Positions 17,865 through 25,222 of a DNA stretch of 34,277 nt are shown one piece after another. Position 1 is the stretch's first letter. Every line of letters begins with the position of its first letter. Made by a program: the position numbers and the translations under genes. The notes beneath the pieces are model-generated. The model was not told where the DNA came from and searched no databases. It was given only the letters and a program-made list of their open reading frames with translations. Source of the DNA: an uncultured Brachyspira sp. (GTDB taxonomy: Bacteria; Spirochaetota; Brachyspiria; Brachyspirales; Brachyspiraceae); contig NZ_CALXRN010000238.1 in assembly GCF_944390595.1 (NCBI RefSeq), positions 1 to 34,277 of the forward strand. The letters are read 5' to 3'.

Positions 17865-18845
17865 ATGGCAGATGAATTGTTTTCAAGAAAAGAATCTGTA
17901 AAGGATATTTTCAACATTATAGAAAGTAAATTAAAGAAAGGTTTATTTAAAGAATCTATGGAAGATTTTGACAGAATCATGTACATGGATTTTGAATGTT
18001 CAAATCTTTACGAAAATATATCCTGTGTAAAGTTTTGGATTAATAGACTTGATAAATTTAATAGTGTAAAAAATAATTGTATAGAGTATTGTAAATTGCT
18101 TGATTCTACTTATAAGAAATTTAGAGCCTTTATAGGAAATAAATCTTATAATGAAGATTTAATATCAGTAAATGCTATACATTATTTTGTTTATAATAAA
18201 ACTATTAAATTAATAATGAATAAAAATACTGATGATATTGAAGGAAGTGAAGAGCTGCATTTATTATCAAATGCTTTTATAGAATTAAAGGATTACTCTA
18301 TGGCTTTAAAGTCTTATGAGTATTTGAATACAATAGAGCCTTATAATTCAAATACTCTAAGTTTTATAGCTATGATTTATGATATACTTGGAGATAAGAA
18401 AAAATCCAAGATGTATATAAGAGATGCTTTATTTTACGATCCTTTAAGTATAGAATTTGAAAATATAAGCATTGATGTATTAAGAGAAATTAGAGATATA
18501 ATAATTAAGAGGGGGGTTCATAATAATAGTCAGGAAGAGATAATAATGTGGATGAGTGCTTATGGTGAATTGATGAACATTTTAGATGTCAAAAGACCTT
18601 TAAGTGAAAAAGAAGAATTTGAACTTAGAAAGAATATTTCAAGATTGGAAGCAGATTACAGAAAGCTTAAATTAAGAGATATAACAGCACCTAAACTTTT
18701 ATCATCTTATGCATTCCTTACAACATATCTTATTATGAGAAATAGTGATTCTGATGTTGAGGAAGTAAAGGTATGGGGCAGGAAGATGGCTATGATAGAT
18801 AAGGACTTATTGCAATACTACATAAAAATACTAGATAAGGGGTGA
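17865..18845 (+). CDS. TPR-like helical protein, cytoplasmic
   Basis: 326 residues, with no signal peptide or membrane segment. Two tetratricopeptide-type helix pairs are visible: about 128-160 (LHLLSNAFIELKDYSMALKS) and 162-197 (TLSFIAMIYDILGDKKKSKM). The N-terminal third is also helical (KKGLFKESMEDFDRIM). The last third has a charged helix with RKNISRLEADYRKLKLRD. I know no specific function. The gene overlaps none and ends 4 bases before the second TPR gene, which has a strong Shine-Dalgarno, so the products are probably made together and may interact. No alternative in-frame start lies closer to the Shine-Dalgarno at 17841. Confidence 0.8.
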   Translation: MADELFSRKESVKDIFNIIESKLKKGLFKESMEDFDRIMYMDFECSNLYENISCVKFWINRLDKFNSVKNNCIEYCKLLDSTYKKFRAFIGNKSYNEDLISVNAIHYFVYNKTIKLIMNKNTDDIEGSEELHLLSNAFIELKDYSMALKSYEYLNTIEPYNSNTLSFIAMIYDILGDKKKSKMYIRDALFYDPLSIEFENISIDVLREIRDIIIKRGVHNNSQEEIIMWMSAYGELMNILDVKRPLSEKEEFELRKNISRLEADYRKLKLRDITAPKLLSSYAFLTTYLIMRNSDSDVEEVKVWGRKMAMIDKDLLQYYIKILDKG

Positions 18846-18849
18846 CAAG

Positions 18850-21060
18850 ATGTCAGAAGCTCTACAAAAATTAGAAAATATATTTTCAGAAGAAACATTT
18901 ACAAGAAAGCCTTTGCTCAATTATACTACTAAGTATTTTGTTGATTTAGCAGCTATTGTAAATGATATTAATGATACTAATGATATAAATTCAGCTATAG
19001 ATACTGCTAAATTGCAATTAGAAAAAAATCCTAATCATATATCAGCATTATATGCTAGCGGATTATTAAATTTAAAAATAGAAAATTACACAGACGGTAG
19101 TTTAGATAAACTTTTGGGTATTTTTAAAAATGCTAAGAAATGGAATATTGTTGAGTTTATAGCTCAGAAGATTTTAGATGAATATTATGAATGCGATTAT
19201 GCTTTAAGATATTTAGCCAGTTATTATCAAAGTGTTAACAGAGAAGCTGAGGCATTAGAAGTTTTGGAAAGATTAATACAGTTTGATGTATCTAATCCTG
19301 AACTTCCTGAAAAGATTGCACATACTAAAGAAGCAGCTGGGGATATTAGCAGTGCTGTTCATTATTATAAAATAGCTTTTGAGAGAAACCTTATTAGAGA
19401 AAGAAATAATGCAGAAAGTGATATAAAAAAAGTTCTTCAATATGAGCCTGATAACTATAATTATTTGCTTAAGCATGAAAATGATCTTAAAAAGCTAGTT
19501 GATTCTAATATTATGATAGATGTATGGAAATTAATATTTTTACATTATTTGGAAAACAGCCGTTATAATGATGCATTAAAGACTATTAAAAATCTTCTTA
19601 ATTATGAGCAGGATATAGTGGCTCAAAATAACAAAAAGGCTAAATTTTTTAGACATAGACTTGTTGATGTTTATAAAGGATTATACCCTAAACATACTCT
19701 TTTTGAAAAAATAGAAGAGATATCTTCAATAACAAATGTTAATAAAAAACCTAAAGAATGTATAGAAATATTTGAAAAATATATACAATATGATGTTGAT
19801 AAATATGTTATTCATAGAAATTTCGGTGTTGGTAAAATAAAAGATATAAATATAAATGAATTAAAAATTAAATTTGTGCAGCAGGATGATGAAAGAAAGA
19901 TGACATTTGATATGGCTATACAATCTCTTACAACATTATCCGATGATGATATAAATGTTTATAAGGCTTACAGACTTAATGAACTAAAAAAAATAGCAGA
20001 AGAGAATCCTACAGAGTTATTAACTATAATATTGAAGTATAGAAAAACTATTAATACAAAAGATTTAAAACAAGAATTAACCTCAAAGCCTAGTATTGTA
20101 GTTGCTGAAGGAGTTTATACTAAATGGCTCGAAAGTGCTAAAAAATCTGTTAGAGCTTCTACTACAGTTAAATTTGATAAAAATACTTTTCTTTATAATG
20201 AGGAAGCGGAAACTTATGATGCTGAAAGTTTATCTAAATTTAATAAAACAAATGATTTCTTTGAAAAGTATCAAATTTATATGGAATATTTAACTTACAC
20301 TCATAATTCAAACTCTGATGAAGCTAAAGAGATGAATAATTATTTCGTAAGTATTTCCAAAGATAAGAAAGCAGAAGATGATGCTAGAATTATAAGTACT
20401 ATACTTTTAAAAAGCCAGTCTTCTAATAGTGATAAAGATATACCTTTGTTATCAGATATAGTAAAAAATGTTAAAGATTATACTCATATTTATGAGGTTT
20501 TACCTTCTTCCAACTATAGAGAAAAATTTATAAAGGCTATATGGGATGGAAGAAGAGATGATTATTATAATATAATACTAAAAATGCTGTATTCTTCTCA
20601 GGTTAAAAATAATTATTTGATAGTGAATAAATTATTTGCTGACGGAAAAGTTGATATGCTTGCTAAAACTATAGATGATATATTCCTTCATTACAGAGAA
20701 TATCCGGAATCATTTGTATATTTTGCACAAAAAATACTTGACGGGGAATATTATGATGATATAGAGGGAGATATTAAAATAAATAAAAATTCACTTATGA
20801 TAGGTTTGTTAAGTATTATTCCTCATTTATCAAAAATGCTTGATAAAAAAGAAACTTCTGCACAGGCTAGAAAGCTTTTGAAGGTAGTTTATGATTTAGT
20901 GTTTGATAAAGAATATTTGCTTAAATTTATACAAAATGAATCTGAAGATGACGTAAAAATTATATTCAGCGAATTCCAAAAACTTGTAAATTTAGAGCAG
21001 CATTATAAAACAGATATTATATCAGCTGTTATAAAACGCTTTCCGGATTGGAAAATATAA
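18850..21060 (+). CDS. TPR protein with a CarD/RID-like segment (possible GreA N-terminal-domain relative)
   Basis: 736 residues, cytoplasmic and mainly helical. TPR-like pairs fill about 45-260, for example NHISALYASGLLNLKIENY and ALRYLASYYQSVNREAEAL. Residues 313-365 form a short beta segment, DVDKYVIHRNFGVGKIKDI, then strands and MTFDMAIQSLTTLS. This resembles the Tudor-like RNA-polymerase-interacting domain of CarD and Mfd (VVHPxxGVGxI). The remaining 370 residues are helical. From memory, Treponema and Borrelia GreA proteins carry a large N-terminal extension of this kind; here no GreA coiled coil or GreA C-terminal domain follows. A role near RNA polymerase is inference. AAGGGGTG precedes the ATG, and a strong terminator follows. 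Confidence 0.7.
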   Translation: MSEALQKLENIFSEETFTRKPLLNYTTKYFVDLAAIVNDINDTNDINSAIDTAKLQLEKNPNHISALYASGLLNLKIENYTDGSLDKLLGIFKNAKKWNIVEFIAQKILDEYYECDYALRYLASYYQSVNREAEALEVLERLIQFDVSNPELPEKIAHTKEAAGDISSAVHYYKIAFERNLIRERNNAESDIKKVLQYEPDNYNYLLKHENDLKKLVDSNIMIDVWKLIFLHYLENSRYNDALKTIKNLLNYEQDIVAQNNKKAKFFRHRLVDVYKGLYPKHTLFEKIEEISSITNVNKKPKECIEIFEKYIQYDVDKYVIHRNFGVGKIKDININELKIKFVQQDDERKMTFDMAIQSLTTLSDDDINVYKAYRLNELKKIAEENPTELLTIILKYRKTINTKDLKQELTSKPSIVVAEGVYTKWLESAKKSVRASTTVKFDKNTFLYNEEAETYDAESLSKFNKTNDFFEKYQIYMEYLTYTHNSNSDEAKEMNNYFVSISKDKKAEDDARIISTILLKSQSSNSDKDIPLLSDIVKNVKDYTHIYEVLPSSNYREKFIKAIWDGRRDDYYNIILKMLYSSQVKNNYLIVNKLFADGKVDMLAKTIDDIFLHYREYPESFVYFAQKILDGEYYDDIEGDIKINKNSLMIGLLSIIPHLSKMLDKKETSAQARKLLKVVYDLVFDKEYLLKFIQNESEDDVKIIFSEFQKLVNLEQHYKTDIISAVIKRFPDWKI

Positions 21061-21895: not shown

Positions 21896-22567
21896 TTAAA
21901 ATGTTTTTATATCAGTAAATTCTATTTCTGAATTCACTCTTCCATCAGAACTTTTGTATTTTATTATTTCAGGTAATATATAATCACCTATTTCTGTATA
22001 ATAAATATTAACATCATATATTTTAGATTTTTTGTTATAATATTCTGCTCTTTCAACTAATAGAGTCTCTTTATTTACAGTATAATTAATGCTGTAATTT
22101 TTATCTTCGCCTTTAGCTCTTAAAGTAATTTTGTATTCATTTTTATTTTCATCTATAGTTTCTAAATTAAATTTTTGAGAAAATGAACTATATGTTGTTG
22201 CATTTCCAACTATAGCATAAAAACCTGTAGTTTCTAAAGCCCCTTCAAATACAGAAAACATATTTCTATAAAAATTATCAACATTTTCTAATACTAAAGT
22301 TGGCTTAGCACCCTGCTGAAATGTAAATTTTAATTTAATATTTTCTTTAGATGATGTATAACTTTTTTGAGGTATTGTAGCTATTTGTTTTTCAACTATT
22401 TTGCCGTTTATATAAGCCTCAAATTTTTTAGGATAAATAGAAGAATATTTTTCTTTCATTTTATCGTATATATCTTCAAAATTTAAAGCAGCATCTTCTG
22501 CATATACAATATTAGAAAATATTATGTTAATAAGTATAAATATTATTATTTTTTGTAAGTTTTTCAT
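21896..22567 (-). CDS. Exported protein, possibly LolA/outer-membrane-lipoprotein-sorting-like
   Basis: 223 residues with a signal peptide (IIIFILINIIFSNIVYA, cleavage near residue 23). The mature protein is built of alternating strands. Its C-terminal half (YTVNKETLLVERAEYYN, IYYTEIGDYILPEIIKY, SEIEFTDIKTF) resembles the strand order of LolA-fold lipoprotein-sorting proteins, in which a product is read against a lipid tail. The match is from pattern only, and I give it modest weight. The gene has only a weak ribosome binding site. The downstream exported protein gene follows after 27 bases. Confidence 0.65.
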   Translation of the reverse strand: MKNLQKIIIFILINIIFSNIVYAEDAALNFEDIYDKMKEKYSSIYPKKFEAYINGKIVEKQIATIPQKSYTSSKENIKLKFTFQQGAKPTLVLENVDNFYRNMFSVFEGALETTGFYAIVGNATTYSSFSQKFNLETIDENKNEYKITLRAKGEDKNYSINYTVNKETLLVERAEYYNKKSKIYDVNIYYTEIGDYILPEIIKYKSSDGRVNSEIEFTDIKTF

Positions 22568-22752: not shown

Positions 22753-23058
22753 ATGAGCGAAGAACAAAATGAACAATTGTCAGAAACAGGCATTTATTGT
22801 GCAAATTGCAGATATTGCGTGCTATTTAGAAAAGCAAGCGGTATAGATAGTAATCAATATCTCCTAAGAGTAAAATGTGCACAAGAGCAATGGCGTAAAA
22901 AACTTGGGGAGGAAAAGATGTACAAGTATTTTACAGTTGCAAGAAGAACAGTAGAAAAATGTGACGATTATAAAGAAATGGGAGATTTAAGAAGTTTCTT
23001 AAAGGCTTTGCGTAAAAGTTTGCCTGTGCGTGATGAAGTATATACTATAAAGAAATAA
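22753..23058 (+). CDS. Small cysteine-motif protein, possible zinc binding
   Basis: 101 residues, soluble. Five cysteines are present, three of them in CANCRYCVLF (residues 16, 19, 22), then one each in VKCAQE and VEKCDDY. The spacing fits a zinc-ribbon-like or iron-binding site. The rest is helical and rich in Lys and Arg, so nucleic-acid or protein contact is plausible. I do not recognise a named family. It is the first gene of a run that includes a TPR lipoprotein, a permease-like protein and rsmA, with only 11 bases to the next gene. No function is assigned. Confidence 0.75.
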   Translation: MSEEQNEQLSETGIYCANCRYCVLFRKASGIDSNQYLLRVKCAQEQWRKKLGEEKMYKYFTVARRTVEKCDDYKEMGDLRSFLKALRKSLPVRDEVYTIKK

Positions 23059-23069
23059 CGGATTTTTTG

Positions 23070-23504
23070 GTGAAAAAATATTTTTATTTTTTTGTTATAC
23101 TTGTTTTTTTATTAAGTTCATGTGCTTCAGCTGTTAAAGTCTCTGTTGAAGAAGAGAAGTATCCTAAAATAATAGCTGAAAAAGCATATACTGAATTTGG
23201 TAATAAAAATTACAAGAATGCTATAGCATATTATCAATATATAATTGATAATTTTGATAGAGATAATTATGCTAAAGATGTTGCATGGGCATATTATGAA
23301 ATAGGTTTTTGTTACTATTATCAAAATAAATATGAAGAAGCTTTAAAATATTTCGATATAGTTATTAACAGTTTTACGGTATTGCCTCCTAGAATTTTGG
23401 CTCAAAAGGTTATGCAGGATATTTATGATAAAAAACCTAAGTTAAAACCTGTAGAGATGATAGAAGAGGCAGTGGAAAATATTGAAGAAAATATAGATTC
23501 ATGA
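23070..23504 (+). CDS. TPR lipoprotein
   Basis: 144 residues. The N-terminus VKKYFYFFVILVFLLSSCAS is a lipoprotein signal with lipobox LSSC, so the mature protein is anchored by its cysteine. The body holds two TPR-type helix pairs (YTEFGNKNYKNAIAYYQYII and AYYEIGFCYYYQNKYEEAL), as in the small TPR/BamD-like periplasmic proteins. The C-terminal tail is acidic. GTG at 23070 is preferred to TTG at 23067 because CGGA then lies seven bases upstream. Its last four bases overlap the start of the next gene (ATGA), so the two are translationally coupled. It may partner that membrane protein. Confidence 0.85.
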   Translation: MKKYFYFFVILVFLLSSCASAVKVSVEEEKYPKIIAEKAYTEFGNKNYKNAIAYYQYIIDNFDRDNYAKDVAWAYYEIGFCYYYQNKYEEALKYFDIVINSFTVLPPRILAQKVMQDIYDKKPKLKPVEMIEEAVENIEENIDS

Positions 23505-25222
23505 GAAAAGAATATACTATTACCAATAGACTTATATTAAATTTTTTAATACTTAGCGTTATAAGCATAACAGTCATATTTATAGTTTATGTTTTATATT
23601 CAAGAGGTGAAGGTAAAGAATATTCTATGCTTTCTTATTTATTGGTATCTATGGTATTTTATAAATCTTATATACCATATATAACAGCTTTATCTGTTCA
23701 TTTTTCCTTTTTTAAAGGTAAATATGTGAATCAAGAAAATATATCTAAAGTTATATCTATTCCAATTGCATCAATTGTGATATTAGTAGCATTTTATACT
23801 TTATATGATTATTATTTCGTTAATTATTTAATTGCAAATATTAAAAATCATAATGCCAATAGAGATTATATGGTTTATTATGAATATGAATTGAAGTTAA
23901 GAGATGAGGCTTATGAAAAGGCTAAAGAAGAGCTTGCAGTAGGTAATTTAGATAAAGCCAATACTTTTGCTGAGGAAGCTTTATTTTATGATAAAAATTA
24001 TGGAAATGTTATTTTACTCCTAAAAAGTATACAGGAAGAAAAAAGAAAAAAATATGAAAATACTCATCAAACAGAAATAAATAATATTAATAATCTTATA
24101 AAATCAGGTACTAGGCAATTTACATTAGGTAATTATAGTGAGGCATTAAAATATTTTAATAGAGTTTTATCATTAGATAATAATAATCCTTTAGCTTTAT
24201 ATTATTTAAACAGAATAAGTATTGCTAGAAATGAAAAACCTAAATATAAAGGCAATACTACAGAAGAAATATCAGTATATGGAAGATTATCTGAAGCTAT
24301 TGCTTTATATGATAATGGAAGATTATGGGAAGCGTATGATATAATATATAAGTTATATATGGAATCTCCTAATGTTGCAGAAGTTAATAATTATTATTCT
24401 ATTATTAGAGATGCCATAAGCAGATATGATTTCTTTATTAGAGAGGCTAAAGAAGTTAAAGAGGCATATATTGATAATGCTGATTTGTCTGTAACATCTT
24501 CTTTGGCAAATAAAAATGGCTTAAATATAATGCTTGATAAGAATACATTGCTTACATCACTAAGCGGTGCCATGTTTAAAGGAAATCTATATTTATTTGA
24601 TGTTTCTATTATTAAATTAGATGATGAACTAAAAAAAGTTAGTGCTGAAGATTATTTATATGGAAAATTAGCATATAATATTAAATCTACAAACAATAAA
24701 AATATTATATTAAAAGCACATTTTGATACTAATAAAAACGATTATATTTATAGTGATACGCAAAGCAGAGTAATTCCTATATCTATATCTGATAGTACAT
24801 TAGATATTATTAGAAATTATACTTCATTAAATTTAAATTATGTAAGTGTTCCTGATTTATTTACTTTGAGAAATGAAATGCCTAAATTTGGATATTCAAA
24901 CAGGGAAATAGATTTAACATTATTTGCTAAGAATATAACACCTATTTCATATTTGTTATTATTTGTATTTATAGCTTATTATTCATTTAGATACAGACTT
25001 TCTACATCTTCTGAAGGTCTTACTTTCTGTAATAAAGTAGTTGGAGTTTTAGGTACTTTAATTCTTGCTGCAGTATATAAAGTATTTATTGATTATATAG
25101 CTTCAATTCTTGTTGTATTGTCAAATGTTACAGTTGGAGTTATCGTTACAGTATTAATAGATGCTGTATTAATATTGCTTATAATATTCCAAATGGCTAG
25201 AATTCCTAGAGATGCTAGATAA
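23501..25222 (+). CDS. Membrane protein resembling LptF/LptG permease with a TPR insertion
   Basis: 573 residues. Three N-terminal membrane segments lie at about 12-33, 43-68 and 84-107. A large external region covers 110-470, and three more segments lie at about 478-498, 511-540 and 543-566. In the external region, residues 130-300 are TPR-like (EELAVGNLDKANTFAEEALF, RQFTLGNYSEALKYFNRVL). Residues 340-440 are beta-rich (NLYLFDVSIIKLDD, KNIILKAHFD). The second membrane block, with LFAKNITPISYLLLFVFIA then SFRYR, resembles the LptF/LptG pattern, as does the 3+3 layout around a beta domain. That assignment is inference. It overlaps the TPR lipoprotein gene by 4 bases and rsmA by 11. Confidence 0.65.
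   Translation: MRKEYTITNRLILNFLILSVISITVIFIVYVLYSRGEGKEYSMLSYLLVSMVFYKSYIPYITALSVHFSFFKGKYVNQENISKVISIPIASIVILVAFYTLYDYYFVNYLIANIKNHNANRDYMVYYEYELKLRDEAYEKAKEELAVGNLDKANTFAEEALFYDKNYGNVILLLKSIQEEKRKKYENTHQTEINNINNLIKSGTRQFTLGNYSEALKYFNRVLSLDNNNPLALYYLNRISIARNEKPKYKGNTTEEISVYGRLSEAIALYDNGRLWEAYDIIYKLYMESPNVAEVNNYYSIIRDAISRYDFFIREAKEVKEAYIDNADLSVTSSLANKNGLNIMLDKNTLLTSLSGAMFKGNLYLFDVSIIKLDDELKKVSAEDYLYGKLAYNIKSTNNKNIILKAHFDTNKNDYIYSDTQSRVIPISISDSTLDIIRNYTSLNLNYVSVPDLFTLRNEMPKFGYSNREIDLTLFAKNITPISYLLLFVFIAYYSFRYRLSTSSEGLTFCNKVVGVLGTLILAAVYKVFIDYIASILVVLSNVTVGVIVTVLIDAVLILLIIFQMARIPRDAR

Follow-up and report, generated by a model that had tools for sequence, protein, structure and literature searches.

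A TPR-bearing LptF/LptG-like membrane protein family of spirochaetes that lacks the coupling-helix glutamate

The locus and the predicted architecture of the protein

We analysed a stretch of 34,277 nucleotides from an uncultured Brachyspira sp., referred to here as the window, and focused on an intact gene that encodes a protein of 573 amino acids. This gene lies in a run of genes on the same strand:

22753..23058, + strand: Cys-rich protein of 101 amino acids (CANCRYC...C...C), first gene of the run
23070..23504, + strand: short TPR lipoprotein, BamD-like, with a GTG start, the lipobox LSSC and a match to TIGR03302
23501..25222, + strand: TPR-bearing LptF/LptG-like membrane protein, an intact open reading frame with an ATG start, 573 amino acids
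25212..26057, + strand: rsmA (ksgA), 16S rRNA dimethyltransferase (PF00398, E 6.5e-46)

The reading frame of the 573-residue protein begins in a 4 bp overlap (ATGA) with the stop of the lipoprotein gene and ends in an 11 bp overlap with the start of rsmA, which is probably a mere operon mate. For the lipoprotein, a TTG at 23067 is an alternative to the GTG start, and the match to TIGR03302 (E 3.1e-11, 43 bits) lies below the 81-bit cut-off. Pfam and NCBIfam scans returned no match for the 101-residue Cys-rich protein, which possibly binds metal. The closest named relative is B. alvinipulli (94% identical). Comparison with a further relative (L004) gave a dN/dS of about 0.16, with the lowest values (about 0.10) in the TPR and beta-rich parts; this purifying selection indicates a real gene, all parts of which are under selection.

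Other genes of the window were noted in passing. On the minus strand, 21896-22567 encodes a signal-peptide-like protein with a weak LolA-like match (PF17131, E 0.0012, below the cut-off). Two adjoining genes at 17865-21060, for products of 326 and 736 amino acids, have weak TPR matches, and one stretch of the 736-residue product also weakly resembles CarD/TRCF RID (E 0.0055).

A profile built from the Brachyspirales members (alignment A1) retrieved relatives of about 600 amino acids from other spirochaetes. We refer to these as Treponema-type relatives, since the large family to which most of them belong is, in our reading, that of the treponemes. The Brachyspirales and Treponema-type groups aligned over nearly their whole length, with E 2.8e-28 across 535 columns, and a joint alignment of 36 sequences (A7) was used in the analyses below. 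The 573-residue protein has four parts:

23501..23878, + strand: N-terminal membrane half, TM1-3, residues ~1-126 (profile alignment, hydropathy)
23879..24502, + strand: predicted periplasmic TPR/helical domain, residues ~127-334 (Pfam TPR, AlphaFold, charge)
24503..24835, + strand: beta-rich stretch, remnant of the jellyroll (beta-taco) domain of LptF/G, residues ~335-445 (profile alignment, match in relative L032)
24836..25219, + strand: linker helix and TM4-6, residues ~446-573 (profile alignment)

Averaged over the 36 members, hydropathy peaked at residues 20, 60 and 101 and again at 487, 521 and 556, giving three plus three TM segments. The predicted cytoplasmic loops and ends (N-terminus, TM2-3, TM4-5 and C-terminus) had a mean net charge of +1.0 to +2.2, as opposed to -0.1 to -0.3 for the predicted outer loops. 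Because the positive charge sits on the loops and termini of the opposite side, the region that separates TM3 from TM4 is predicted to lie in the periplasm. Six TM segments are therefore predicted to be split 3+3 round a periplasmic domain, with both termini inside. The original prediction had described three membrane segments, a large external region and three more, and hydropathy and charge across the family bear this layout out.

Within the region between the halves, Pfam recognized one TPR motif (residues 207-237, E 1.2e-5), and the NCBIfam scan gave an Amuc_1098 match over the TPR region at 35 bits against a cut-off of 750. Scanned alone against Pfam and NCBIfam, the protein yielded nothing besides such TPR-type matches. 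An AlphaFold model, whose input was three near-identical sequences, had a pLDDT of 45.3 for the full protein and 40.7 for residues 339-573; the membrane parts failed, and the model was confident only at residues ~130-245 and near 280-295, where it placed helical hairpins whose block confidence rises as high as 84. The Pfam match and the modelled hairpins conform to the tandem 34-residue helix-turn-helix repeats of TPR proteins. Residues 335-445 look beta-rich by sequence; the original prediction had likewise read the region between the halves as TPRs plus a beta-rich part.

Relationship to LptF and LptG

LptF and LptG, the membrane subunits of the ABC transporter for LPS extraction, draw LPS from the inner membrane and work as a heterodimer together with an LptB dimer. 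We examined whether the 573-residue protein is related to them by comparing A7 with a second alignment (A2), made from 29 canonical LptF/LptG proteins of spirochaetes. For the C-terminal half, hhalign gave E 1.9e-9 and a score of 65.4; 60 local shuffles that preserved the hydrophobic segments had a mean of 16.2 (sd 2.9, maximum 25.5). The N-terminal half scored 25.3, and its local shuffles had a mean of 10.7 (sd 1.7, maximum 15.9); in global mode, one shuffle reached 21.2, which is below the real value. In the global alignment, TM1-3 of the family fell in register with TM1-3 of LptF/G, and the linker and TM4 fell on their counterparts, with the linker helix and TM4-6 being the region closest to the canonical proteins. 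The original prediction had seen an LptF/G-like block at residues 470-573. The likeness holds, but this span is too narrow, as the alignment of the C-terminal part begins at residue ~352-361. Residues 335-445 align with the later section of the jellyroll in LptF/G, which places the TPR domain after TM3, where it would replace or precede the first jellyroll strands.

In single-sequence scans, PF03739 matched 6 of the 36 relatives, always in the C-terminal part; one of them (L117, 31.6 bits) exceeded the 27.9 cut-off and the other five stayed below it, and in L032 the match covered PF03739 positions 142-350. A profile search of the PDB returned only four matches, all weak (E 0.85 or worse), three of which were LptG chains aligned in register. 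HMM-versus-sequence scores between the family and canonical LptF/G were weak. We considered whether the protein might be an unrelated six-TM protein with TPRs whose likeness to LptF/G is a chance hydrophobic similarity. This would fit the absence of any PF03739 match at E<=1 for the 573-residue protein alone, and the weak result of the Brachyspira-only profile against LptF/G (E 6e-4, 28 percent probability). However, the deeper profiles scored far above hydrophobicity-preserving shuffles in both halves, relatives reached or came near the Pfam cut-off in register, and the PDB matches were mostly to LptG, leaving chance similarity a very improbable explanation. Both membrane halves are, by profile comparison with shuffle controls, homologous to LptF/LptG, and the 573-residue protein represents a divergent lineage within the LptF/LptG (PF03739) superfamily. 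The LptF/LptG-like assignment of the original prediction is thus upheld by the profile comparisons, the Pfam matches in relatives and the weak PDB matches.

In canonical LptF/G, the TM2-TM3 loop forms a coupling helix that seats the proteins on the LptB ATPase. All 29 canonical sequences in A2 have the coupling-helix Glu, which contacts LptB, and a Gly eight residues downstream is likewise invariant. None of the 36 family members has this Glu, an equivalent Glu-Gly motif was found in none of them, and their TM2-TM3 loop is shorter than the canonical one, in most by roughly 10 residues. In E. coli, the corresponding residues (LptF E84 and LptG E88) are reported to be strictly conserved and required for affinity to LptB, and substitution by Arg kills the cells (PMC5082905). 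Loss of the coupling helix makes LPS extraction with LptB unlikely for the 573-residue protein, which we infer to be uncoupled from LptB.

The same genome holds canonical Lpt genes. With the PF03739 profile, two full-length canonical proteins (260 and 196 bits) were found, both encoded on contigs other than that of the window. A search with the LptB model found one clear LptB, at 372 bits, and ABC ATPase-like matches in the genome number 61. The LptD model gave no match in this genome, for which divergence may account. As the genome encodes canonical LptF, LptG and LptB separately, the 573-residue protein is an extra paralogue and not the LPS permease, and the canonical pair rules it out as the LptF or LptG of Brachyspira. 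The original prediction had named a canonical lptF and lptG pair elsewhere, together with a different fold here, as evidence against itself: the pair was found, and the fold here is of the same family. Two other genomes (G001 and G026) had three PF03739 matches rather than two at E<=1e-5.

Distribution, neighbours and a six-TM partner

The family, which has no Pfam or NCBIfam name, was detected at E<=1e-4 in 190 of 392 spirochaete genomes, or about half. We asked whether weak matches in distant spirochaetes might be canonical LptF/G and rejected this: all 22 matches that were checked, the weakest included, fit the whole-family profile at E 1e-17 to 1e-84, mostly over its full length, and 21 encode 532-653 amino acids, the remaining one being interrupted by a contig end. 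The genome search covered Spirochaetota, and members in other phyla are possible; no relatives were found in viral contigs. One genome (G021) encodes the TPR protein twice at full length, on contigs C199 and C173; its completeness of 86% and contamination of 4% make a mixture of strains likely.

No member was found in the tested Borrelia-like (f33) genomes, in f6 genomes or in the 1.1 Mb genome G074. The family was also absent from the samples drawn from spirochaete families f9, f20, f25, f29 and f37, whose listed genomes lack PF03739 as well, a shared absence that is a correlation only. This correlation and the common fold family would suit a regulator or accessory of canonical LptB2FG, pairing with LptF or LptG by means of that fold and holding its TPRs near LptC/LptA. 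Such a role is nevertheless quite unlikely: many genomes with canonical LptF/G lack the family, among them the Borrelia-like f33 genomes, f6 and G074; no lpt genes lie beside family members in the listed neighbourhoods; and the family has a constant partner of its own.

In all 24 Treponema-type (non-Brachyspirales) loci that were inspected closely, the gene for this partner lies immediately upstream and in the same orientation. It encodes a protein of about 250-340 amino acids (L068:918-1880, with counterparts in L069-L071 and L101-L120), and its distance to the TPR gene is -17 to +18 bp except at one locus, where an apparent overlap of 133 bp comes from start choice. The partner family has six TM hydropathy peaks and no Pfam family common to its members. 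Its N-terminus resembles that of the TPR protein (score 27.7 versus a shuffle maximum of 17.9), and direct similarity of the partner to canonical LptF/G was not detected. A profile search for the partner elsewhere in Brachyspira, and in Brachyspirales as a whole, found none, the partner profile being weak. In both families of that order, the run consists of the 101-residue Cys-rich protein, the BamD-like TPR lipoprotein, the 573-residue protein and rsmA, so that the lipoprotein holds the upstream place of the partner.

The original prediction had proposed a modified lipooligosaccharide exporter that recruits partners. Separate canonical lptF, lptG and lptB genes, a coupling Glu that is absent family-wide and the lack of an ABC ATPase gene among the listed neighbours leave this proposal unsupported. 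A related possibility is a working second ABC exporter, in which an LptF/G-like permease pair contacts LptB or another ATPase in a non-standard way, moves a lipid, glycolipid or lipoprotein, and uses the TPR domain in place of part of the periplasmic bridge. The shared 3+3 TM fold family with its jellyroll remnant, the strongly positive TM4-TM5 loop, the many ABC ATPases of the genome and the two-gene arrangement of the Treponema type, which recalls an lptF/lptG pair, speak for such an exporter. Set against them are the missing coupling helix and Glu in 36 of 36 members, the absence of an ABC ATPase gene among the listed neighbours of family loci, and a six-TM partner without detectable LptF/G similarity. 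We regard a second exporter as unlikely.

Proposed function and comparison with known systems

We favour, with some reservation, the view that the 573-residue protein serves in the inner membrane as a scaffold or passive conduit of LptF/G fold, works without LptB drive and carries a periplasmic TPR dock. In this model, which is drawn from sequence comparison, the LptF/G-fold membrane part would dimerize, its mate being the upstream six-TM partner in most spirochaetes and perhaps a second copy of itself in Brachyspira. The periplasmic TPR platform would dock envelope-assembly proteins, for example the adjoining BamD-like lipoprotein in Brachyspirales, and LptB would not power the protein. More tentatively, spirochaetes may have a second, ATPase-uncoupled LptF/G-like complex, composed of the TPR subunit and a six-TM partner (or the BamD-like lipoprotein in Brachyspira), that serves as a periplasmic docking platform dedicated to outer-membrane assembly. 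If this is true, the LptF/G fold would be open to reuse as a scaffold, through loss of the motor contact and gain of a protein-docking domain, and a docking platform for outer-membrane assembly would be a role not described for this fold. The model predicts a constant two-protein complex in treponemes. The family is common in spirochaetes, for which the assembly of the outer membrane is still poorly known.

The original prediction knew of no described LptF/G with TPRs, and we likewise found no description of such a relative in the open-licence literature, including that on spirochaetes, Brachyspira and Treponema denticola; a TPR-bearing, motor-uncoupled branch may possibly be described elsewhere. 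Borrelia BB0807/BB0808 and Treponema pallidum TP0883/TP0884 have been assigned as LptF/LptG orthologues by structural modelling (PMC10353723, PMC8407342). The assignment is to the canonical pairs of those species, and the parts of these two reports that we consulted mention no TPR-bearing relative (PMC10353723, PMC8407342). The likeness to BamD and other short TPR lipoproteins (TIGR03302), which is below the cut-off, belongs to the Brachyspirales neighbour and not to the 573-residue protein itself. With LptF and LptG, the family has in common the 3+3 TM segments in register, the end of the jellyroll, the linker helix and TM4. It differs from them in that the coupling helix is shortened and without its conserved Glu, in its length (mostly 530-690 amino acids versus about 355-430 for canonical LptF/LptG), in the TPR domain of about 200 amino acids that it adds after TM3, and in that the 573-residue protein occurs in addition to the canonical lptF/lptG pair of the same genome.
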